This document shows, piece after piece, positions 1,591 through 22,170 of a stretch of DNA of 24,323 nt (position 1 is its first letter; each line of letters starts with the position of its first letter). Below the pieces are notes generated by a model, which searched no databases, was not told the DNA's origin, and saw nothing but the letters and a program-made list of their open reading frames with translations. Source of the DNA: a virus. Both the position numbers and the translations under genes were made by a program. Where the stretch lies: IMG/VR virus record IMGVR_UViG_3300025112_000182, positions 1 to 24,323 of that record; one strand, written 5' to 3'.

Positions 1591-1905
1591 ATGGACCTCT
1601 TATATTTTGTGCTTGCCTCTTATGGCTTGACACAGATTTTAGTATATGGAACAATATTTAATTCCGTTAGACCAGTAAAGGGAAAACTAGGAGAATTATT
1701 TCATTGTCCAATGTGCCTCGGCTTTTGGGTCGGGGCATTTTTATTTGGAATTAATGGGTACACAGAACTATTTACATTCGAGTATACTTTCGCTAATCTT
1801 TTTATTTTAGGGTGGCTGTCGTCAGGAACGTCATATATCCTAAGTATGATATTTTGTGACAATGGTATACAGATAGGAGTAAACAATGGGCAACTGGACA
1901 AGTAG
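1591..1905 (+). CDS. DUF1360-like small membrane protein with CPMCLGFW motif
   Basis: The 104 aa protein has about three hydrophobic membrane segments, near residues 2-22, 40-56 and 68-90. The motif CPMCLGFW (about residues 39-46) has the paired cysteines followed by Gly-Phe-Trp that mark DUF1360-type membrane proteins, a family of unknown function in bacteria and some phages. The paired cysteines could bind metal or take part in a disulfide, which is inference. It starts one base after the stop of the preceding gene and reads in the same direction as the head genes, so it is likely co-expressed late. It has no signal peptidase site and is probably placed in the inner membrane of the infected cell. 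A role in lysis timing, envelope modification or exclusion of other phages is possible but unproven. Confidence 0.75.
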   Translation: MDLLYFVLASYGLTQILVYGTIFNSVRPVKGKLGELFHCPMCLGFWVGAFLFGINGYTELFTFEYTFANLFILGWLSSGTSYILSMIFCDNGIQIGVNNGQLDK

Positions 1906-1983: not shown

Positions 1984-2586
1984 ATGAGTAAATTATTATT
2001 AACAGAATATTATGAACTATGTCCCAACGGGAAGTGCGATGATCTTCTGACAGAAGAAGAAAAAAGAATGGTTCGTGAAGATAATGCTATGTTTTTAACT
2101 GGTGTTATGCAAAGATGTAACCATCTCAATGGCAATGGTCGTGTCTATAGCCGCCCCATTTTAGAACGGGAAGTGGATAATTATGGCAAGCTTGTTCGTG
2201 AAAGACGTGCGCTAGGCGAGCTTGATCATCCAGATTCTGCGGTTATTAATTTGGCAAATGCCGCCCACCTTGTAACTGAAGTATGGTGGGACAGCGATGC
2301 TGTTATGGGTAAGGTGCAAATTTTGAATACTCCATCCGGGCAAATTCTTCGCTCTCTTGTAGAAAGCGGAGTTAAGCTTGGCATATCTTCCAGAGGCATG
2401 GGTTCTGTTCATGAATCAAATGGACAAACAATTGTTGAAGATGACTTTCAATTAATTTGTTTTGATTTTGTCTCTGAACCCTCTACAACGGGTGCCTTCA
2501 TGGTGAAAGAAAACAAACAATCAAACATTATCACAAAGGCAGATAGAATCAACAGAGCACTTAATGATGTTTTGAGGGATAAATGA
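1984..2586 (+). CDS. 21: Prohead maturation protease, T4 gp21 type
   Basis: The 200 aa length is close to the 212 aa of T4 gp21. The visible match covers most of the protein: the strand around FLTGVMQRCNHLNGNGRVY, the ALGELDHP motif with the likely catalytic His82, the WW pair at 101-102, and GISSRGMGS with the likely nucleophile serine at 135 or 136. These correspond to GELNHP and GVSSRG of the T4 enzyme, a serine protease of the herpesvirus-assemblin-like fold. In T4 it sits in the prohead core and cleaves scaffold and capsid proteins at sites of the form (L/I)-x-E. The start is the first in-frame ATG after the spacer; its Shine-Dalgarno sequence is weak. It overlaps the next gene by ATGA. 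The scaffold gene that normally follows is displaced about 9 kb downstream. Confidence 0.93.
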   Translation: MSKLLLTEYYELCPNGKCDDLLTEEEKRMVREDNAMFLTGVMQRCNHLNGNGRVYSRPILEREVDNYGKLVRERRALGELDHPDSAVINLANAAHLVTEVWWDSDAVMGKVQILNTPSGQILRSLVESGVKLGISSRGMGSVHESNGQTIVEDDFQLICFDFVSEPSTTGAFMVKENKQSNIITKADRINRALNDVLRDK

Positions 2587-2999
2587 AAAAATCAGAGTTG
2601 AAGCAGGTTCTTAGACCGCTTATAAAAGAATGTATTAAAGAAGTGATATTTGAAGAAGGCATTTTGTCTAATATTGTATCCGAGGTGGCTCAAGGGCTTG
2701 GAGGTGGTACAATTGTTGAATCAAAGCAGCACGTTATATCTTCTGAGCAGCAAGATGAACAAAGGCAGCAAGAAGAAGAAGTGGCACGCCAAAAAATACA
2801 GGAAACAAGAAAGAAAATGTTGAATGCTATTGGAGCCGATTCTTACAACGGGGTAGACCTCTTTGAAGGCACGTCCCCCGCACTACAGGAATCAGACCAA
2901 ACTGCTGCACTTTCAGGAATCGATCCTTCAGATGCCGGTGCTGACATTAGTAAACTTTTTGGAGGGACCAATAAAAACTGGTCACATATGTTTAAATGA
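2583..2999 (+). CDS. Unrecognised 138 aa protein coupled to gp21
   Basis: The ATG overlaps the protease stop as ATGA, so the two are very likely translationally coupled. The first 40 residues form an amphipathic helix (KKSELKQVLRPLIKECIKEV). A Gln/Glu-rich coiled-coil-like segment follows at about 55-80, then a Gly/Asp/Ser-rich, probably disordered C-terminus ending SHMFK. There is no cysteine motif, signal or membrane segment. The helical, charged make-up and the position next to the protease would fit a prohead core or internal protein, but I do not recognise the family. It ends by overlapping the bS21 gene with another ATGA. Confidence 0.8.
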   Translation: MKKSELKQVLRPLIKECIKEVIFEEGILSNIVSEVAQGLGGGTIVESKQHVISSEQQDEQRQQEEEVARQKIQETRKKMLNAIGADSYNGVDLFEGTSPALQESDQTAALSGIDPSDAGADISKLFGGTNKNWSHMFK

Positions 3000-3205
3000 G
3001 TAAAGTAGTTAATATTTCTGTCAAGCCCTTACGCAAAGACCGACCAGAGAAAATGATTCGGAGATTTACTCGTAAAGTAAAAAAAGCCGGAATTCTTGAC
3101 GAGGTTAAAAGAAGAAGGTATTATAAAAAGCCATCCGAAGTTAGAAGAGAAAAAAATATTCGTAGAAAACGAGAAACAGCAAAATTAGAGAGAAAAAAGA
3201 AGTAA
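2996..3205 (+). CDS. rpsU: Phage-encoded ribosomal protein bS21
   Basis: The 69 aa, very basic protein aligns by eye with E. coli bS21 (71 aa). The shared pattern is R-R-F at residues 22-24, KKAGILDEV at 29-37 (E. coli EKAGVLAEV), RRRYYKKPSE at 39-48 (E. coli RREFYEKPTT), and a Lys/Arg-rich C-terminal helix. bS21 is a small-subunit protein near the 3' end of 16S rRNA and the anti-Shine-Dalgarno region, where it affects translation initiation. A phage copy could replace or compete with the host protein and favour late phage mRNA; that is inference, though bS21 is known in various tailed phages. It has no clear Shine-Dalgarno sequence and starts in an ATGA overlap, so its expression probably depends on coupling to the gp21 operon. 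Confidence 0.88.
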   Translation: MSKVVNISVKPLRKDRPEKMIRRFTRKVKKAGILDEVKRRRYYKKPSEVRREKNIRRKRETAKLERKKK

Positions 3206-3709: not shown

Positions 3710-3793
3710 ATGAATAAATTTAGCAAGGTGGCTCTTAATACCATGTACAACCTATTTATAGTAAACAATTATAATTATAGGAGCGTTGTTTAA
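3710..3793 (+). CDS. Possible 27-residue ORF in the spacer
   Basis: A 27-codon ORF starts 14 bases after the preceding gene's stop. It has AGGA at 3698-3701, eight bases from its ATG, and ends in a TAATG overlap with the start of the next gene, the same layout seen at other junctions here. The peptide (MNKFSKVALNTMYNLFIVNN...) is partly hydrophobic. The candidate promoter motif at 3752-3760 lies inside it, and the next gene has its own Shine-Dalgarno sequence, so it may be fortuitous. Confidence 0.3.
   Translation: MNKFSKVALNTMYNLFIVNNYNYRSVV
3752..3760 (+). promoter_or_regulatory. Candidate late promoter element CTATTTATA
   Basis: CTATTTATA preceded by ACAAC lies 32 bases before the ATG of the 142 aa gene. 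Related sequences occur in four other leaders (6715, 11678, 14573, 17311). The T4 late promoter is TATAAATA on the coding strand; this is not that sequence, so a distinct sigma-factor preference would be needed. Similar octamers also occur inside genes, so the assignment is tentative. Confidence 0.35.
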
Positions 3794-4233: not shown

Positions 4234-6660
4234 ATGGGTTTTCAAGGAAGCAAATTTGAACCAGGAATGGTTCCCGAAAGTGGAACACTAGCAGGGGCAG
4301 GCAGTTATGTTGCGTTAAATTCTGATGACGAATTTATTTTAACAAGTTTCTTTTCTGGCTCGGGCGGCGGTGGTGAGGGTGCCGTTACAGCCCTTAATAA
4401 TAAAGCACAAAGCCGCCTTGTTACGATTGGCTCAACAACAACCGAATTAGATGGCGAAGCTAACTTAACTTATGATGGCTCAACCTTTTCTATCGATGAC
4501 GCTGCTGTGTTTAATGATAGTGGAGCAGACAAGGATTTCAGAGTTGAATCCGATGACGAAACACACATGTTTTTTGTTGACGCTGGAAACAACCGCGTAA
4601 GCATTGGCGATTCAGACGATGCTCCTGCTGCAACTTTAGAGGTTACAAACCACGCATCTGCTGGCGCAACCGGTGTTGCCCTTGTGCAGCTTAATAGTAA
4701 CGATCTTGATAAAGTTGCACTTGATATCAATGCTGCAAATACAACTGCCAACGCTGTTGATATCGCTGCTGATGTAACAACTGCCGCAGCAGTCGCAGTC
4801 ACCGCTAATGATCTAACAACAGGTGCTGGATTAAGCGTAACAAGTACAAGCACAGATACAGGCACCGGCAACTCTGTGCTGGCTCAGTTCAAATCTACTG
4901 GCGACCGTGGGCATGATTCAAATCTTCATGCCGGGGTGTATATTGATTTCGACTCCACAGCCGGTACCGCTGCTAAGGCTTTATGGATTGACTCTGAACA
5001 AACAACAGGAAAAGTAATTGATGTAGACGCCGATCAGATAACAACAGGGGTCGCATTAGAGATTTCCACCGACGCAAGAACAACCGGCACAGCGTTAAAC
5101 ATCTCAGACTCTGCAACTGGAGACAGTGCAGGAAGCTTGGTCAAGATCGCCCAGACAGGCAACAGAGCAGGCTCTGCCGCAAGCATCGGTTTAGATATCG
5201 ATTTTGACACAGCAGCAAACGCAAACGCAAGAGCGCTCCGAATTGATTCAGAGCAGACAACTGGTGTAGTTGCTGAAATTAATGGCGATGCATTAACCAC
5301 TGGAACAGCAATAGATATTTCTACTGATGCGAGAACAACCGGAACAGCGCTTAATATTTCAGATTCCGCAACCAATGATAATGCTGGTAGTTTGGTCAAG
5401 ATTGCACAGACAGGCAACAGAGCAGGCTCTGCCGCTAGTATTGGCTTAGAAATCGACTTTGATACAGCGGCAAACGCAGCCGCCAGAGCGCTCAAAATCG
5501 ACTCAGAACAAACAACTGGTATCATTGCTGAAATTAACGGTGATGCTTTAACAAGTGGAACAGCATTGGATATTTCTGCTGATGCTCTAACAACTGGAAA
5601 CGTAATTAGCATTGGTGTCGATGACTGCCTGCTTTCAGGAAAAATAATTGCCATCGATCACAATGACGCTGCCACCGACCCAGGCGCTTCGACAGTCGGT
5701 ATCTTATATGATTTCGATAAAGATGGTACCGTCGCTGCTTCAGTCAGTTCAGGTCATACTGCACTAGAAATCAACATGGCAGACGCTGCCACCAACGATT
5801 CAAACTCCGCAGTAACGATGAAGGGTCTTGATATTGATGTCGATTCTGCAAGCAACTCGGGTAATAACACCAATATTGGTGTGGACATAAAAGCCACTGA
5901 CGCAACAAATAACTATGGCATTGTCATTATTACAGACGACGACTCTGCAACGAGTGCTGACATTGTGATGAAGTCCGATGCGAATAATAACGATATGGCT
6001 ATTCTAGCTGTCGGTGGCGAGGGTGCACTAACTATAAAAACCATCGATGCTGATACAGCCGCTGCCAACTTGACACTTACTATCGATGGTGACATTACAG
6101 CCACCGCTGCCGGTGGCGATATTACAATGACAACTGCCACAGCCACAGCCGCCGGATCTGGCGTTAGCGATGCCACTTCTCAAACTATGTATGTAGAGAA
6201 GAAAAACGGCGTAATTAAAACCACAATTTTAATTGATATCGCAGGTCTTAGTTCGGCGGACACTGTTGGCAAGGTCATTGGCGACACCACGGATGCCAAT
6301 GCTTATCTTACAAAACTTACATATGCAATAAACGGAATAGTCTATGAAGCTCGAATGGGCTGTATGGAAACTCCTAACAGTGCGGGCACCCACACAAAAA
6401 ATATCGATTTACGAGCAAGCACTACTAATCGCGCCGGAGCCGCAGACGGTAGCGGTGACCCTCTGTGGCTTGATTGTGGTAGCGTAGATTGGTCCATCGG
6501 TGCGAAACGAACCCCTCCACCAGAGGATGTTCTCGCAGCGCTGGGATCCGCCGATGATCTTTATCTATACCTCAGTGCCGGTACTACCGTCAGCAGCGCA
6601 ACAGCCGCATATAATGCTGGACAGTTTATTATCGAACTGTGGGGTGCCCCCACCCTATAG
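4234..6660 (+). CDS. Large repetitive tail fibre or fibre-like protein, 808 aa
   Basis: The protein is extremely rich in Ala, Thr, Asp, Gly and Ser, with very few aromatic residues over about 600 residues, as in trimeric beta-helical phage fibres. It opens with MGFQGSKFEPG, then a Gly-rich hinge (SGSGGGGEGA, near residue 43) and a segment with TELDGEANLTYDGSTFSI that resembles the start of many environmental phage fibres. A module with ESDDETHMFFVDAGNNRVS (about residues 105-125) recurs in the 1234 aa protein. From about residue 280 an 85-residue unit repeats, each copy carrying DARTTGTALNISDSA and IDSEQTTG. The C-terminal 170 residues are non-repetitive and richer in hydrophobic residues, and may be the receptor-binding or trimerisation end. 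It is likely exported on the virion, with host adsorption as the probable role. Confidence 0.85.
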   Translation: MGFQGSKFEPGMVPESGTLAGAGSYVALNSDDEFILTSFFSGSGGGGEGAVTALNNKAQSRLVTIGSTTTELDGEANLTYDGSTFSIDDAAVFNDSGADKDFRVESDDETHMFFVDAGNNRVSIGDSDDAPAATLEVTNHASAGATGVALVQLNSNDLDKVALDINAANTTANAVDIAADVTTAAAVAVTANDLTTGAGLSVTSTSTDTGTGNSVLAQFKSTGDRGHDSNLHAGVYIDFDSTAGTAAKALWIDSEQTTGKVIDVDADQITTGVALEISTDARTTGTALNISDSATGDSAGSLVKIAQTGNRAGSAASIGLDIDFDTAANANARALRIDSEQTTGVVAEINGDALTTGTAIDISTDARTTGTALNISDSATNDNAGSLVKIAQTGNRAGSAASIGLEIDFDTAANAAARALKIDSEQTTGIIAEINGDALTSGTALDISADALTTGNVISIGVDDCLLSGKIIAIDHNDAATDPGASTVGILYDFDKDGTVAASVSSGHTALEINMADAATNDSNSAVTMKGLDIDVDSASNSGNNTNIGVDIKATDATNNYGIVIITDDDSATSADIVMKSDANNNDMAILAVGGEGALTIKTIDADTAAANLTLTIDGDITATAAGGDITMTTATATAAGSGVSDATSQTMYVEKKNGVIKTTILIDIAGLSSADTVGKVIGDTTDANAYLTKLTYAINGIVYEARMGCMETPNSAGTHTKNIDLRASTTNRAGAADGSGDPLWLDCGSVDWSIGAKRTPPPEDVLAALGSADDLYLYLSAGTTVSSATAAYNAGQFIIELWGAPTL
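5071..5580 (+). repeat. Two tandem 255-bp (85-residue) repeats in the 808 aa fibre gene
   Basis: The phrase GATGC(A/G)AGAACAACC starts at 5071 and again at 5326, exactly 255 bases later. A third, degenerate phrase starts at 5581, again 255 bases on. Both full units encode ISDSAT, NAGSLVKIAQTGNRAGSAAS and IDSEQTTG. An older, more diverged unit of similar layout precedes them (about 4804-5070). The exact in-frame period suggests recent tandem duplication that lengthens the fibre shaft. Confidence 0.85.
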
Positions 6661-6714
6661 GTTCGAGCAGCACTACAAATCTTAAATAAGAGAGCCCTTA
6701 TTGCCATTTGCTAT

Positions 6715-6723
6715 CTATTTATA
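6715..6723 (+). promoter_or_regulatory. Candidate late promoter element CTATTTATA
   Basis: CTATTTATA lies 35 bases before the ATG of the 1234 aa fibre gene, in a 98-base spacer. The spacer also holds a small AT-rich hairpin (AATAAG/CTTATT, 6685-6702) and a strong Shine-Dalgarno sequence (TATAGGAGC, 6742-6750). It is the same element as at 3752. Confidence 0.35.
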
Positions 6724-6758
6724 TTGACGAATAATATATATTATAGGAGCTTTAAGTA

Positions 6759-9700
6759 ATGGGCGAATTTGGATGGGCTTATATAAAAGGCGCACTAACC
6801 GCAAGTGGACCTACCGGATCTTTACAATTTAGAGACGACAACGATGGGGGCACTAATAATGGTGTTTTAACCGGCAGCGCTAGATTAATATTCAATACTG
6901 CATCGAACTCCCTTCTGGTTACGGGAAGCGTTATCATTAATGGCGATTTAATTGTCAGTGGCTCAAGTTTTTCGATCTCCTCAAGTAACCTTGTTATACA
7001 CGATCCAATAATCGGTCTTGGATTCGGAACGTCAAGTGCTATGACAGGTGCTGCTGGTGACCGTGGGTTTATTTTTGGTCTTCCAACCGATAACAACCAA
7101 GCGCTGCTCTGGGATCAAACCTCCGCAAGTTTTATTGTTGGAAAAGTTGGCGCACCTGGACCAGAGAGAGGAGCTTACGATATTGCCGAAGGCAATTATA
7201 GTACTCTAAAAGTAGGAAACCTAAGAGCATCCGGCAGCACCGGACAAGTTTTTGCTTATAAAATATTGACAAGCGGAGACGTTAATGCTTCTGGAAACGT
7301 TAATGTTGGTGGAAACTATTCCGGCTCCAAGGGCTTGTTCACTAGTCAACTCAATGTCGCCGGTCCCTTCCGTGTTACGGGAAGCTTCTCGGGATCTAGT
7401 ACCGGCTATCTTGGCGCACTTGATGTTGCAGGCAATATTGGCACTTCCGGCTCCGTAACAGTTAAGTCTGTACTTTCAGGCACTAATGCCATCTTCGGCG
7501 GGGGCGGTGGCGTTAACGTCGCTGGACCGCTTCGTGTTACAGGAAGTATTTCTGGGTCCAATAGAATTTTTGGATACGGGATAGAAACAAGTGGGCAATT
7601 AGGAGTTTCAGGTTCGTCCGTGCTCAAGTCCACCTTATCAGGGACTAATGCCATCTTTGGCGGCGGGGGCGGCGTTAACGTCGCTGGTCCCTTCCGTGTT
7701 ACAGGAAGCTTCTCGGGATCTAAAGGCATATTTAATCACCAGCTTGATGTCGCAGGCAATCTCGGGGTTTCTGGCTCAACAACCTTTAAAGGAGATTTCT
7801 CTGGGTCTAAAGGTATCTTCAGCAACCAACTTAACGTCGCTGATAATTTAAGAGTTTCGGGAAGCTTCTCGGGCTCCAAAGGCATCTTTAATCACCAGCT
7901 TAACGTCGCCGGTCCCTTCCGTGTTACGGGAAGCTTCTCGGGATCTAGTACCGGCTATCTTGGTGCGCTTGATGTTGCAGGCAATATTGGCGCTTCCGGC
8001 TCTGCAACAGTTAAATCTTTTCTTTCGGGCACTAATGCAATCTTTGCCAAGGGTGTTGACATTGCAGGAAATCTTAATGTTTCAGGCGCGGCAGTATTCA
8101 ATGATGGTGGCGGCGATAACGACTTTCGAATTGAATCCGATGACGAAACCCATATGATTTTTGTTGAGGGGTCATCCAATAGAGTAAGCATCGGTGATTC
8201 CGTAGACTCTCCCGCAGCCACCTTAGAAATCACAAACAATGCATCTGCTGGAGCGTATAACGTTCCTCTTGTGCAGCTTAATAATAATGATGTTGATCAA
8301 CACGCCTTACTCATCGAGGCCGCAAACACAACTGTTCAAGTAGCTCAGATTAAAGCATCAAATACTACAAGCAATGTAATAGAGGTAACAGGAAGTGCTC
8401 TCACAACAGGCGGATTACTTCACTTACAATCAGACTCTTCTGATGCCGGTAACAGAACTCTTTTTACTGTCCACAATGACAACACAGCAGCGGTTGGCGT
8501 TCAGATGGTTCATTTCAAGAATGACGCCGTTGGGGGTGCTGGGGATCCGATACTCCTGGTCGAGTCAACAGCAGCAGAGACAGAAGCGATTGTTGAGATA
8601 AGAAACTCGAACACCGCGACGGACAAGCCACCGATACTCAAGCTCAATCGCGCATCGTGGGCTGATGCTGACGATATGGGTATCGGCACCATCATATTCC
8701 AGGGTGTGCACGACGCCGCAAGCTGGCCGGATAATATCGAATACGCAACCATTGTAGGATCTGCTTCCGACACAGCCGAGGATGACGAGGGAGGTAAGAT
8801 TGTATTCAACGTGTTTGCTGGAGGACAAGCAGGCACCGCTGCATCAACAAATCTCTTGTCGATAGGTGGCGAGGTCAAAGACGGTGCCGTATGTGAAGTA
8901 GTTGTTAATGATGCTGGAATTGACTGTGATTTCCGCATCGAGGGAGATAGTGAAACCCACCTCATTTTCGCAGAAGCGGCGAACGACCGTGTTAGTATCG
9001 GTGCCTCCGTTGATAGTCCCGCCGCAACGTTGGAAGTTACTAATGCTAGTGATGGTGGTGTCCCTCTTATACAACTTAATAGCAACGATACTGATAAGAC
9101 AGCGTTAGATATTAATGCTGCAAATATTGATGCTTCTGTTGTTGATATTACTGCCAATGCTGTAACAACTGCTGCTGCATTAAATATCGACGCTAATGCT
9201 CTAACAACAGGAGCCGGGTTGGTTGTGGCAAGTACAAGCACTCAGACCGGTTCCGCTTCTGCTTTGGTTGCGATTAAATCCAATGGCGACCGAGGGCATG
9301 CCTCAAACCGTCACTCAGGATTGTTTATTGATTATGACTCAACAGCGGGAGCCGCTGCTGCTGCTTTATATATCGACTCCGAACAAACAACGGGTATTGT
9401 AGTCGATGTCGACGCGACAGAAGTAACAACAGGAACGGGTCACAGGCTTAGTCTTGGCAATGTTACCACTGGAGCCGGATTAGTAATCGATCACAACGAT
9501 TCTCAAACTGGAGACGAAGTAAATCCAACAACTTTGCATATTGATTATGATAAAAGCGGAGTAGCTGCCGATGAAGCCGAACAGCGCCCCACTGCGGTAA
9601 AGATTGATATGAGTGATGCTGCTACCAACCACGCAGGTAGTGAGGTAACAATGACAGGCTTGGATGTTAACGTGGACTCTGCCAACACCCAAGGCACTAC

Positions 9701-10463
9701 AATCAATACTGGTATAGATATTAGTGTCACTGATGCAGCCTCCAACTATGGGCTCGTTATCGCCGCAGAAGATGGCGCAGGGAGCGATATTCAAATAAAA
9801 TCCACCGCTGACGGCGGCGATTACTGTACAATTGCAACTATAGCAGACGGAGAAACAACTATCACCACTAGTGAAGCCGGTGGTGGAGCGACTGCTCATT
9901 TTAATCATGTGATTGATGGAAATATCTCGTCTTCAGCAAATAACGGGGCAGGAACCTACAAGGTCCAAGCCACGACATTTGACATTGATGCTGGCTCGTT
10001 TGGAGTGAATGTTGGAGGCGGGACAGTAGCTACATCAAGTCTTGGTGTAAATGCTCATTTTAACCCAACTACATTAAAATCGGCAACAGGAGGTGGAGAA
10101 GTCGTGACATTTGGAGCAGAGGATGGTTCCGATACTCTCGCCGCAGGTAAACTAATGTGCTTGCAAGATGATGGAGTTTGGAACTATGCAGACGCAGATG
10201 AATTACTCAGCAGCAGTGCCCTGCTCGGAGTAGCGCTTGGAACTTCTATAACTGATGGTATCCTTGTACGAGGCTACTTCCATTTTGCTTCTGTACAAGG
10301 AAGTTTTAAAGCTGGTCAACCATGTTATGTGTCAGAAAATGCTGGCTCCGTTGATTTCGTTGCCCCAAATTCCTCTGGTGATACTGTACGAGTAGTCGGC
10401 TATGGAACTAGTGTGACTAATGTTATATATTTCTGTCCAGATAATACCTGGATTGAACTATAA
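6759..10463 (+). CDS. Very large repetitive tail fibre protein, 1234 aa
   Basis: The start follows a clear AGGAG at 6745-6749. The N-terminus (MGEFGWAYIKGALTASGPTG, then FRDDNDGG) and the strands after it resemble the virion-attachment end of marine phage fibres. Residues about 165-445 are built from degenerate repeats of 23-29 residues with FSGSKGIF, LNVAG and FRVTGS, typical of a triple-stranded beta-helix shaft. Two modules with ESDDETHMIFVE (about 458) and EGDSETHLIFAE (about 727), each followed by RVSIG and AATLE(I/V)TN, match the module in the 808 aa fibre. The last 130 residues (GVALGTSITDGILVRGYF to PDNTWIEL) form a compact C-terminal domain common in environmental phage fibres. It probably forms a long adsorption fibre. 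The stop overlaps the next start (TAATG). Confidence 0.87.
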   Translation: MGEFGWAYIKGALTASGPTGSLQFRDDNDGGTNNGVLTGSARLIFNTASNSLLVTGSVIINGDLIVSGSSFSISSSNLVIHDPIIGLGFGTSSAMTGAAGDRGFIFGLPTDNNQALLWDQTSASFIVGKVGAPGPERGAYDIAEGNYSTLKVGNLRASGSTGQVFAYKILTSGDVNASGNVNVGGNYSGSKGLFTSQLNVAGPFRVTGSFSGSSTGYLGALDVAGNIGTSGSVTVKSVLSGTNAIFGGGGGVNVAGPLRVTGSISGSNRIFGYGIETSGQLGVSGSSVLKSTLSGTNAIFGGGGGVNVAGPFRVTGSFSGSKGIFNHQLDVAGNLGVSGSTTFKGDFSGSKGIFSNQLNVADNLRVSGSFSGSKGIFNHQLNVAGPFRVTGSFSGSSTGYLGALDVAGNIGASGSATVKSFLSGTNAIFAKGVDIAGNLNVSGAAVFNDGGGDNDFRIESDDETHMIFVEGSSNRVSIGDSVDSPAATLEITNNASAGAYNVPLVQLNNNDVDQHALLIEAANTTVQVAQIKASNTTSNVIEVTGSALTTGGLLHLQSDSSDAGNRTLFTVHNDNTAAVGVQMVHFKNDAVGGAGDPILLVESTAAETEAIVEIRNSNTATDKPPILKLNRASWADADDMGIGTIIFQGVHDAASWPDNIEYATIVGSASDTAEDDEGGKIVFNVFAGGQAGTAASTNLLSIGGEVKDGAVCEVVVNDAGIDCDFRIEGDSETHLIFAEAANDRVSIGASVDSPAATLEVTNASDGGVPLIQLNSNDTDKTALDINAANIDASVVDITANAVTTAAALNIDANALTTGAGLVVASTSTQTGSASALVAIKSNGDRGHASNRHSGLFIDYDSTAGAAAAALYIDSEQTTGIVVDVDATEVTTGTGHRLSLGNVTTGAGLVIDHNDSQTGDEVNPTTLHIDYDKSGVAADEAEQRPTAVKIDMSDAATNHAGSEVTMTGLDVNVDSANTQGTTINTGIDISVTDAASNYGLVIAAEDGAGSDIQIKSTADGGDYCTIATIADGETTITTSEAGGGATAHFNHVIDGNISSSANNGAGTYKVQATTFDIDAGSFGVNVGGGTVATSSLGVNAHFNPTTLKSATGGGEVVTFGAEDGSDTLAAGKLMCLQDDGVWNYADADELLSSSALLGVALGTSITDGILVRGYFHFASVQGSFKAGQPCYVSENAGSVDFVAPNSSGDTVRVVGYGTSVTNVIYFCPDNTWIEL
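7321..8090 (+). repeat. Array of degenerate 23-29 residue repeats in the 1234 aa fibre gene
   Basis: Units with the pattern FSGSKGIF-x-x-Q-L-N-V-A-G-x-x-R-V-(S/T)-G-S recur through this part. Some blocks are nearly identical at DNA level: about 95 bases from 7356 recur at 7905 (549 bases, 183 codons apart), and a block beginning ACTAATGCCATCTT at 7482 recurs at 7644 (162 bases, 54 codons). The spacings keep the frame, as expected of recombination within the shaft. Confidence 0.85.
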
Positions 10464-11677: not shown

Positions 11678-11686
11678 CTATTTATT
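11678..11686 (+). promoter_or_regulatory. Candidate late promoter element CTATTTATT
   Basis: CTATTTATT preceded by AACA lies 33 bases before the preferred scaffold start, in the 90-base gap after the propeller gene. It is related to the elements at 3752, 6715, 14573 and 17311. It would give the scaffold and capsid genes their own transcript. Confidence 0.35.
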
Positions 11687-11719: not shown

Positions 11720-12685
11720 ATGTCTACTTTGCTTGAGCAAGCGATAGTTGATGCCGAGGCACTAAAAGAAGCCGCTATGAAAAACGCAGAAGCATCTATT
11801 ATTGAAAAATATTCCTCTGAGGTTAAAGCCGCAGTTGCATCTTTAATTGAACAAGGGGGCGAAGATCTCCTTGGCGATCTTGAAGAAGCCCCAGAGGATG
11901 AAAGTCCAGTAATGGACGAGGTTCCTTTTGCAGTTGAAGAAGGCGACGATCCAATTATGGTTCGACTTGATCTCGAAGCATTAGAACGTGCGCTCCAAGA
12001 AGAAGGTTCCACCGATGCTGAAGAAACACACGAAGAACTTGCCGAAGATCTTGAAGACGATATTCAAGAAGAAGATATTGAGCTTGATGAGATGATTCTT
12101 AATGCCATAGCAGAAGAATTAAAAGTTGACGTAGGAATTCCAGATCAAGGACTTGGTGGACGCACAACTCCAACTGATAGAAATTTAGAAGGGCAAAAAG
12201 TACAACTTGCTGCCCTTAAGGATGATGAACTTGCAGAAGAACATGCTGCTCTAGAAAAAGCTAGAGAAGAAGCTGGTATGTACATGGAGCAAGTGGAAAC
12301 CCTTAGAACTCAAAAATCAAAATTAGAAAAAACAGTTTTACATCTTAAGGAGCGATTGGAAGAAGTTAATCTTTCCAACGCTCGTTTACTTTATACAAAT
12401 CGAGTATTAAATAGCACCTCCTTGAATGAGCGACAAAAAATTAAAATTGTCGAGTCTATTTCAAACGCAGATTCTGTAGAAGAGGCGAAGGTCATTTACG
12501 AAACCCTTCAAAGCGCCGTGGGAGATGCTAGAAATAGTCAATCTCCACAATCACTACGCGAAGCAGTAGAGAAACCATCGCCAACGCTTCCCCGAAGCAT
12601 TGCAAGAAGGGAGGCACTTAGTGTTCAAAATCCGCATTTTGATCGGATGAGAGCACTAGCAGGCATTAAAGGAGGTAATAAATAA
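11720..12685 (+). CDS. 22: Prohead scaffold/core protein, T4 gp22-like
   Basis: It lies directly before the major capsid gene, as gp22 does in T4, and has the expected make-up: very acidic, almost entirely helical, and with a strong coiled coil in about residues 175-235. I prefer the ATG at 11720 (321 aa, MSTLLEQAIVDAEALKE) because GGAG at 11707-11710 sits nine bases upstream; the in-frame ATG at 11705 would overlap that Shine-Dalgarno sequence. The protein should form the internal core on which the capsid assembles and then be destroyed by the gp21 protease. Several Leu/Ile-x-Glu triplets are available for cleavage. Family assignment rests on position and composition, since scaffold sequences diverge quickly. 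The TAA ends at 12685, overlapping the capsid ATG by one base. Confidence 0.82.
   Translation: MSTLLEQAIVDAEALKEAAMKNAEASIIEKYSSEVKAAVASLIEQGGEDLLGDLEEAPEDESPVMDEVPFAVEEGDDPIMVRLDLEALERALQEEGSTDAEETHEELAEDLEDDIQEEDIELDEMILNAIAEELKVDVGIPDQGLGGRTTPTDRNLEGQKVQLAALKDDELAEEHAALEKAREEAGMYMEQVETLRTQKSKLEKTVLHLKERLEEVNLSNARLLYTNRVLNSTSLNERQKIKIVESISNADSVEEAKVIYETLQSAVGDARNSQSPQSLREAVEKPSPTLPRSIARREALSVQNPHFDRMRALAGIKGGNK
12668..12676 (+). promoter_or_regulatory. Very strong Shine-Dalgarno sequence of the capsid gene
   Basis: AAAGGAGGT lies at 12668-12676, eight bases before the capsid ATG at 12685. It is among the longest anti-Shine-Dalgarno matches in the window, fitting the most abundant virion protein. 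It overlaps the last codons of the scaffold gene. Confidence 0.8.
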
Positions 12686-14499
12686 TGTCCGTATTAAAAA
12701 AACTAACTGAAGGCATTGTCGATAGAGATCTTTCAAAGGAAGGTGCTGCACTTTTATCAAAGTGGGAACGCACTGGACTTTTGGAAGGTTTAGACAATGA
12801 CCGTACTAAGCAAAGTATGGCTCGTCTTCTAGAGAACCAAGCTAAGGAACTTCTTCGTGAAACTTCCGCTATGGCTGGTGGTGATGTAGAAGGTTTTGCC
12901 GCTGTTGCTTTCCCCATTGTTCGTCGTGTATTCGGCGGCTTGGTTGCTAACGATCTTGTTAGCGTTCAGCCCATGAGCTTGCCCTCTGGTCTGATTTTCT
13001 TCCTTGACTTTACTGTTTCTGATGAAACTGGTGCTCGGGGTGGATATGAGTCTGGTGATTCCATTTATGGTGGTGGCAAGGTCGCTGCTGAGATTACTGG
13101 TGGTGTTTCGCTTTCCGGTGATGAGGCAGAAGATAGCTTCTACAACTTAAATAATGGCTATTCTTCACCAACTGGTTCCGCTGCGGTAACCATTCAAGGT
13201 GTTGCTTCCGGCACATTCGGTGGTAGTGGATATAAGACTACCCAATGGAATGCACAAACCAATGTAAACGTGCTTGGTTCAATTATGTCTGGTGCGCTGG
13301 GAGATCAGCTTTGCCGATTCGATCCAGAATTTACTTCTGGTACAACCAATGTTATGATCGGTAGAGTTGCAATTGCAAGTCTCTCTCAGATCAATAAGAG
13401 GAATTGGGTTACTGTCAGTGCATCTCTTGGTTTGGGCTCAGGTGTTCAACTGAATCGTAGATTGACTCAGCTTTCTGGATCTGCTGCGAATAAGGGTATT
13501 TGGAAGCCCGGTGATGCAGAAACTCATCTTTTGATGTTCTGGTCTTCGGACTCACAAACTATTGCACAGTTGTCGGCTTCAATTCAACCGTTGACCTACC
13601 TCTCTCCCGAAACCTCTTGGTCCATCGATGATGATTTCGTCGCTGGTGGAGCAAAGGGTTCAGTGATTGGGGATCCCCTTTGGGGTCTTGAGCAGGCAGC
13701 AGCTAGCGCTAGCGAGGCCAACGGACGAGATGTCATCCCTGAGATTGATATCAAGGTTGACTCTGTGAGCATTACTGCTATGACCAAGAAGCTGAAAGCC
13801 AAGTGGACACCGGAGTTAGGACAAGATCTTAACGCCTATCACAACTTGGATGCAGAAGTAGAGCTTACTAGCATTCTCTCTGAGCAAATTGCTCTTGAGA
13901 TTGACCGGGAGATCCTCGCGGACCTCGTGAATGGTCAAACTGCCGGTAAGTACTATTGGTCCAGGGCACCCGGTAGGTTTGTGAGACGAACCGGTACCGG
14001 CGCTGGTGAAGAAGTTGGTGTAACTACGGCTACACCTGACTTTACCGGTACTGTGTCTGAATGGTATGAAACTCTTGTTGAAACAATCAATGATGTTTCT
14101 GCACAAATTCATCGCAAGACCTTAAGAGGTGGCGCTAACTTCATCGTCGTTGGACCTGAAGTAGCAAACATTCTTGAGTTCACTGCGGGATTCCGTGCAA
14201 ATGTCACTGGTGATGTTGACAAGGGTACTGTTGGCGCAGTCAAGACTGGAGCGCTTTCTAAGAAGTGGGATGTCTATGTAGACCCCTACTTCCCTCGAAA
14301 CCTCGTTCTCGTCGGTCGCAAGGGTGGCTCTTTCTTGGAAAGTGGCTACGTGTATGCCCCATATGTGCCATTACAGGTCACGCCCACTATCTTCGGAACC
14401 GAAGACTTCGTACCCCGCAAGGGAGTTATGACGCGCTACGGCAAGAAGATGGTTCGTCCTGACATGTATGGACTAGTCGTCGTACTTGACCTCGTATAA
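12685..14499 (+). CDS. 23: Major capsid protein, T4 gp23-like
   Basis: The N-terminus shares with T4 gp23 the pattern LLSKWERTGLLEGL, ARLLENQAKE, then AFPIVRRVFGGLVANDLVSVQPMSLPSG at about 75-103 (T4 has VRR, then VQPMNSPTG). The HK97-like fold and gp21 processing are known for this family. Candidate cleavage triplets before the mature domain are LLE at 32-34, LLE at 48-50 and LRE at 57-59, and I cannot choose between them. At 604 aa it is about 80 residues longer than T4 gp23 (521 aa). The extra length appears to lie in a Ser/Thr/Gly-rich region at about 130-350, where an insertion domain would be exposed on the capsid. Translation should be very strong (AAAGGAGGT). A terminator follows 32 bases after the stop. 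Confidence 0.95.
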   Translation: MSVLKKLTEGIVDRDLSKEGAALLSKWERTGLLEGLDNDRTKQSMARLLENQAKELLRETSAMAGGDVEGFAAVAFPIVRRVFGGLVANDLVSVQPMSLPSGLIFFLDFTVSDETGARGGYESGDSIYGGGKVAAEITGGVSLSGDEAEDSFYNLNNGYSSPTGSAAVTIQGVASGTFGGSGYKTTQWNAQTNVNVLGSIMSGALGDQLCRFDPEFTSGTTNVMIGRVAIASLSQINKRNWVTVSASLGLGSGVQLNRRLTQLSGSAANKGIWKPGDAETHLLMFWSSDSQTIAQLSASIQPLTYLSPETSWSIDDDFVAGGAKGSVIGDPLWGLEQAAASASEANGRDVIPEIDIKVDSVSITAMTKKLKAKWTPELGQDLNAYHNLDAEVELTSILSEQIALEIDREILADLVNGQTAGKYYWSRAPGRFVRRTGTGAGEEVGVTTATPDFTGTVSEWYETLVETINDVSAQIHRKTLRGGANFIVVGPEVANILEFTAGFRANVTGDVDKGTVGAVKTGALSKKWDVYVDPYFPRNLVLVGRKGGSFLESGYVYAPYVPLQVTPTIFGTEDFVPRKGVMTRYGKKMVRPDMYGLVVVLDLV

Positions 14500-14572: not shown

Positions 14573-14581
14573 CTATTTACA
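14573..14581 (+). promoter_or_regulatory. Candidate late promoter element CTATTTACA
   Basis: The element, within GCTCAACTATTTACA, lies just nine bases after the terminator T-run and 19 bases before the neck gene ATG. The extended context CAACTATTTA is also found at 17308-17317. Immediate placement after a terminator is what a new promoter would require, making this the best-placed of the five copies. Confidence 0.42.
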
Positions 14582-17310: not shown

Positions 17311-17319
17311 CTATTTATT
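17311..17319 (+). promoter_or_regulatory. Candidate late promoter element CTATTTATT
   Basis: The element sits in TTCAACTATTTATTAACG, 68 bases before the sheath ATG, and shares CAACTATTTA with the copy at 14571-14579. The 112-base leader also carries a strong Shine-Dalgarno sequence (AAGGAGA, about 17370-17376) and nothing else I can identify. Confidence 0.4.
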
Positions 17320-22095: not shown

Positions 22096-22128
22096 GAAAA
22101 TTGGGTTAACGCCCAATTTTCTTTTTTT
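22096..22128 (+). terminator. Strong rho-independent terminator
   Basis: GAAAATTGGG (22096-22105) and CCCAATTTTC (22112-22121) are perfect inverted repeats with a six-base loop, followed by seven T bases at 22122-22128. It lies 13 bases after the small ORF and would separate the assembly genes from the tape measure gene. An A-run on the opposite strand is lacking, so it acts mainly in the plus direction. Confidence 0.92.
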
Positions 22129-22170
22129 ATGGAACTAATTAAAGAAGCAGCAATATAAGGAAAACTTCTC

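Follow-up and report, generated by a model that had tools for sequence, protein, structure and literature searches.

Why phages carry genes for ribosomal proteins is an open question. The protein bS21 lies on the platform of the 30S subunit, near the anti-Shine-Dalgarno (anti-SD) sequence, and is one of those ribosomal proteins that are loosely bound and can be exchanged. In the phages described by Chen et al. (2022; PMC9723584), bS21 is encoded a few genes from those for prohead protease, portal, terminase and capsid proteins, with the prohead protease gene at most ten genes away in 310 of 900 published genomes, and late expression and hijacking of the ribosome were proposed. The clades in question are Bacteroidetes jumbo phages that carry bS21 on the reverse strand, with an aromatic residue at the place of Tyr54, and in lake phages bS21 was found to be expressed late, alongside structural genes (PMC9723584). 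A myovirus bS21 is also known from Pelagibacter phages (HTVC008M, Mizuno et al., 2019, PMC6375957; Mosig EXVC030M). The HTVC008M protein entered E. coli 70S ribosomes, and the ribosomes that carried it retained approximately 5% of their activity (PMC6375957). Phage bS21 genes close to prohead protease and capsid genes, their late expression and the hypothesis of ribosome hijacking or bS21 swapping are thus already published (PMC9723584, PMC6375957). Shine-Dalgarno (SD) sequences that are bridged to their start codons by hairpins have been described for genes 25 and 38 of phage T4, and for gene 25 the description is backed by reporter and probing experiments (PMC3014915).

Here we analyzed a virus record of 24,323 bases (the window), which is a fragment of an aquatic T4-like myovirus and represents a T4-like late gene cluster, since genes for gp21, gp23, tail sheath and tail tube lie in one late cluster (Table 1). 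It contains no tRNA genes, and an Rfam search gave no matches. The genes for gp21, for a 138-aa protein that we call X and for bS21 are on the same strand, and ATGA overlaps are present both between gp21 and X (2583-2586) and between X and bS21 (2996-2999), in agreement with the late head operon and the ATGA-coupled trio that a first-pass annotation of this DNA had recognized. Downstream of bS21 follow, in order, genes for two large repeat-bearing proteins, a 326-aa protein, gp23, a head-tail adaptor, sheath, tube and baseplate proteins. The 326-aa protein encoded 5' of gp23 is a putative scaffold by position only. The two large proteins (808 and 1234 aa; 4234-10463) have similar repeat modules and are inserted between bS21 and the scaffold/capsid genes. 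In the tail region, a hairpin (TTGGGTTAACGCCCAA) followed by a T run at 22100-22130 is likely to be an intrinsic terminator.

Table 1. Features of the gp21-X-bS21 locus and the major capsid gene in the window.
Feature	Position	Strand	Evidence or remark
DUF1360 protein gene, hosts the CTATTTA element	1591..1905	+	PF07098, E 4.5e-6
CTATTTA element, 216 nt 5' of gp21 and within the DUF1360 gene	1768..1774	+	Candidate promoter of gp21-X-bS21
gp21 prohead protease (Peptidase_S77)	1984..2586	+	PF03420, E 5e-31
X, 138 aa, conserved partner	2583..2999	+	53-member alignment; ATGA overlap at either end
GGAGG, distal half of putative split Shine-Dalgarno for bS21, within X	2961..2965	+	At synonymous sites; conserved in all 11 close relatives
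Hairpin GACCA/TGGTC, between GGAGG and the bS21 ATG	2966..2983	+	-6.4 kcal/mol; spacing 30 -> 12 nt
bS21 gene, 69 aa	2996..3205	+	PF01165, E 1.1e-10; PHROG 21469; solved bS21 chains; dN/dS ~0.1
Major capsid gene Shine-Dalgarno AAAGGAGGT	12668..12676	+	Duplex dG -12.9, top SD in window
gp23 major capsid protein	12685..14499	+	PF07068, E 5e-71

The open reading frame at 2996-3205 almost certainly encodes a genuine bS21. A profile search, which had been named beforehand as a possible refutation of this assignment, returned an above-threshold match to Pfam Ribosomal_S21 (PF01165; E 1.1e-10, 41.5 bits with a cut-off of 27); PHROG 21469 ("ribosomal protein S21") was matched with E 9e-9, and solved bS21 chains were aligned along most of its length (best E 9e-9). 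The protein is basic, with a charge of +21. Its residue R59 sits where Tyr54, the anti-SD-blocking aromatic residue of Bacteroidota described for F. johnsoniae, would be, the equivalent position being extrapolated six residues past the aligned stretch, and an aromatic residue was found there in one of 110 viral sequences. By this predicted correspondence, the window protein is not a bS21 of the Bacteroidota anti-SD-blocking type, and a bS21 without the blocking aromatic in a phage that uses SDs fits with ribosomes that read SDs.

We sampled relatives of the locus in three ways, by bS21, by gp21 and by X. In the searches with gp21 and with X, the 80 best of over 590 matches were retained, so that the resulting figures describe the group to which the window belongs and not all T4-like phages. 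The gp21 sample (the 80 best among over 590 matches) includes 47 distinct loci that extend 3 kb or more downstream; 45 of these have bS21 located 3' of gp21 on the same strand, one gene away in 23 and at a distance of 1.1-3.6 kb in 22, and X is directly 5' of bS21 in 38 of the 45. Such a frequency among relatives sampled by gp21 alone makes the linkage between bS21 and gp21 more than chance. Sampling by X, again limited to the 80 best of over 590 matches, placed bS21 directly 3' of X in 74 of 75 distinct loci and gp21 upstream in 72 of 73. X and bS21, adjacent in 74/75 loci, thus form the fixed unit. The gene for gp21 is usually found upstream of this unit and adjoins it in about half of the relatives. 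The fixed coupling of bS21 to head morphogenesis that had been claimed for this locus is therefore borne out as a same-strand linkage to gp21 (45/47 in the sample just described), but the strict partner of bS21 is X and not the protease, and the ATGA junction of X and bS21 is one among several junction types in the relatives.

One bS21 copy was found in each of the 15 bS21-positive records that we examined, and bS21 is absent from the cultured phages T4, VH7D, S-RSM4 and Flavobacterium phage immuto. The sole X gene without an adjoining bS21 (locus L314, 4001-4414) belongs to a 70.8-kb record across which no bS21 was found. No bS21 was found in the 43.6 kb of locus L083, and locus L041 gave a sub-threshold bS21 match only.

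Protein X had no match in Pfam and no useful match in PHROG, and structure prediction returned no confident fold (pTM 0.25). Its charge is not conserved: the window copy is acidic (-6.3), and values range from -4 to +15 across relatives. An LFEG motif, which could be a gp21 cleavage site, is not invariant, and X as a cleaved gp21 substrate was rejected on this basis. A role alongside bS21 or within the prohead core is the most likely one for X.

bS21 had been described as a gene without its own SD, which is true only of the canonical position, because a GGAGG within X is probably joined to the bS21 start codon by a hairpin. The ATG is preceded by no SD at the usual distance (dG -2.2), although most other genes in the window have one. 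The GGAGG (dG -9.8) is found 30 nt before the ATG, and 18 of these 30 nt form the hairpin, which gives an effective spacing of 12. This is the layout of a split ribosome-binding site of the T4 gene 25 type, with a distal SD and a conserved intervening stem. Both GGAGG and hairpin are kept in all 11 distinct close sequences (the window included), in which the synonymous sites of X are nearly saturated, such that 6 of 59 invariant-residue codons are identical in all 11. In the hairpin stem, 87% of cells are paired, as against at most 43% when the stem is slid. The fold of the window alone is not exceptional when compared with shuffles, and moderate nearer SD matches can also be seen in two of the 11 close relatives.

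The GGAGG and hairpin could instead be by-products of the FGGT-NW peptide encoded by X, with bS21 started by ATGA re-initiation after X only. The constraint on this peptide does favour GG codons and TGG, and no double compensatory changes were seen in the hairpin. We nevertheless consider this reading unlikely, given that synonymous codon randomisation produced an equal or better combination of SD and hairpin in at most 1.8% of trials per sequence (joint p <=0.018 in all 11), and that among the ten invariant glycines of X the codon is kept only at the one in GGAGG. A sister clade with the same FGG..NW peptide has, moreover, lost both GGAGG and hairpin and has a nearer SD instead (mean -6.0 vs -3.2). 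The synonymous-site test thus weakens an explanation by coupling without any SD, and it is likely, as judged from these sequence comparisons, that bS21 uses a split ribosome-binding site jointly with ATGA re-initiation.

In 68 of 87 loci, gp21 is preceded by the motif CTATTTA, mostly at 136-252 nt and almost only in the sense orientation. It falls at the peptide TELF of the DUF1360 gene, and CTA and TTT codons followed by A were observed in all 80 distinct DUF1360 ORFs with a locatable site, eight others being without the peptide. The residue encoded after these codons varies (T, S, I, N, M), yet the next base is constantly A, and elsewhere in the same ORFs CTA makes up 10.7% of leucine codons. 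In four related genomes, 39-43% of CTATTTA sites are intergenic, compared with 8-10% expected, and the motif is approximately three times commoner before late-cluster genes (Fisher p 8e-5, five genomes pooled), although some non-late genes are preceded by it too. Apart from the copy listed in Table 1, sense copies are found before late genes of the window at 3752-3758, 6715-6721, 11678-11684, 14573-14579 and 17311-17317. The T4 late promoter TATAAATA was rejected as the driver of gp21, as its single coding-strand copy is far from that gene. The simplest reading of CTATTTA is a promoter that would serve gp21-X-bS21, while an mRNA processing site or a protein-binding site is possible. We regard it as a candidate promoter motif of this phage group, distinct from the T4 late promoter in the same orientation.

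The SD of the major capsid gene to which the first-pass annotation had drawn attention is present and is the strongest in the window, and the capsid SD ranks within the top 2% of genes in three genomes. A comparison of late with other genes, which had been suggested as a check, found stronger SDs in late genes of four bS21-carrying genomes (Mann-Whitney p 3e-5, 7e-5, 0.05 and 0.008). This lends weak support to the proposed switch of host ribosomes to late messages, but few genomes enter the comparison, genes were called with a simple program, and host and ancestry are confounding factors. The same limits apply to the observation that SDs at dG -8 or stronger account for 21-45% in the four bS21-carrying genomes and for 0-12% in three bS21-less T4-like phages. 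Strong SDs are also not a necessary companion of the bS21 gene, because Microcystis phage Mel-JY01 (PP395634), with a bS21 gene and a similar gene order, uses weak SDs.

The model that we somewhat favour as a whole joins a late gp21-X-bS21 unit, a split SD, a swap of bS21 on the 30S subunit and SD-rich late messages. The unit, with bS21 as its last cistron, is probably transcribed from the CTATTTA-type promoter inside the DUF1360 gene, and late co-expression of bS21 is highly probable. bS21 would then be translated by two linked routes, namely ATGA re-initiation after X and the hairpin-bridged split SD. Having kept its core, the phage protein would take the place of the weakly bound host bS21 on the 30S subunit during head production; by analogy, phage bS21 probably enters host ribosomes as particle building starts. 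Finally, phage bS21 could keep active, or favour, initiation on the SD-rich late messages of the phage. This step is the weakest and least secure of the model, and selection of late messages by phage bS21 is a tentative suggestion that we hold to be somewhat doubtful. The approximately 5% activity of E. coli ribosomes with the pelagiphage protein (PMC6375957) and the weak SDs of Mel-JY01 speak against the model.

Phage bS21 might alternatively displace host bS21 to shut off the host, leaving ribosomes that are poor at host messages, with no selection of late messages by SD strength. This would be in line with the approximately 5% activity of ribosomes with pelagiphage bS21 in the heterologous E. 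coli assay (PMC6375957) and with the retention of the gene by Mel-JY01 in the absence of strong SDs. However, the E. coli result may reflect a mismatch of species, late production would be an odd timing for shut-off, and the synthesis of capsid protein needs active ribosomes, all of which make this alternative unlikely. It is improbable, too, that X and bS21 act together as a single module for a late switch in translation, in which X would help to load bS21 onto the 30S subunit and the split SD would be read differently by phage-type and host-type ribosomes, resulting in feedback on bS21 output and in a timed move towards SD-rich messages for the capsid.

In another reading, bS21 would be a basic RNA-binding protein of the head, perhaps together with X, and would either be located in the prohead core or be packaged and injected with the DNA for the start of the next infection. 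Packaging has also been suggested by Chen et al. (PMC9723584), the gene sits between gp21 and the capsid genes, and the strong positive charge of bS21 (+21) could be set beside the acidic X of the window (-6.3). The charge of X, however, is not conserved among relatives, nor is its LFEG motif invariant, and most of the bS21 sequence aligns with ribosomal chains, its core being conserved under selection. We consider such a role very doubtful.

Purifying selection acts on bS21, as seen from dN/dS values of 0.09-0.12, which are close to those of X and higher than those of gp21. The divergence of bS21 follows that of X more closely than that of gp21: in Mantel tests, the pairwise distances of bS21 and X give r 0.77 (0.60 for distant members), compared with 0.69 (0.39 for distant members) for bS21 and gp21. 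In a tree of 86 sequences and 81 columns, a weakly supported grouping (44/64) separates the X-linked viral bS21s from the bacteria that were sampled, and the pelagiphage copy places among bacteria, outside the X-linked group. Because the distances of X and bS21 correlate and the X-linked viral bS21s group apart in the tree, the data would fit an old viral lineage and not a recent acquisition from a host. A captured host gene retained by chance is thus extremely improbable and was rejected: phages do acquire host genes, but dN/dS is about 0.1, presence in the group is near-universal and the tree grouping is virus-only.

No close bacterial kin of the viral bS21s were found among the sampled Pseudomonadota, Planctomycetota and Acidobacteriota in a search biased toward gammaproteobacterial sequence in its query. 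The tree had been put forward as a guide to the host lineage; it indicated no host among the sampled phyla, with Chloroflexota and Bdellovibrionota represented by one row each and Bacteroidota and Cyanobacteriota left out. The top "bacterial" match (L162, PBOB01000007.1) was rejected as a bacterial bS21, since the contig is itself phage DNA with X-bS21; it is filed in a GTDB Acidiferrobacteraceae MAG, and is either mis-binned or a clue to the host.

According to the literature that we searched, three aspects of this locus are new: X and bS21 as a near-obligate same-strand pair in a T4-like group, the presence of a putative split ribosome-binding site at a ribosomal-protein gene of a phage, and an upstream CTATTTA element that is strictly conserved. 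X-bS21 after gp21 is a deep and consistent arrangement in many aquatic T4-like phages, and if bS21 retunes ribosomes late in infection, then X, the split ribosome-binding site and the upstream element are parts that can be mutated.

The window differs from the clades of Chen et al. (2022; PMC9723584) in its same-strand coupled gp21-X-bS21 unit, in a bS21 without the aromatic residue and in the use of SDs by the phage. bS21 shares the strand of gp21 in the window, as it does in 45 of 47 relatives (taken from the 80 best of over 590 matches), and is not on the opposite strand as in those clades; X may or may not correspond to the bS21 neighbour family that they reported. In the pelagiphage Mosig EXVC030M, bS21 adjoins neither gp21 nor X, and in the tree the protein falls outside the X-linked group. 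The T4 split sites belong to other genes and to another phage group, and the window site is predicted from sequence, but the changes in spacing are comparable in kind, from 27 to 11 for gene 25, from 22 to 5 for gene 38 (PMC3014915) and from 30 to 12 for bS21. Mel-JY01 is a cultured phage with a similar order, in which terminase, gp21, a small protein, bS21 and capsid genes are arranged in the same order and on the same strand, although its small protein is weakly X-like (E 0.006), its genes have no overlaps, its SDs are weak and its host is a cyanobacterium.
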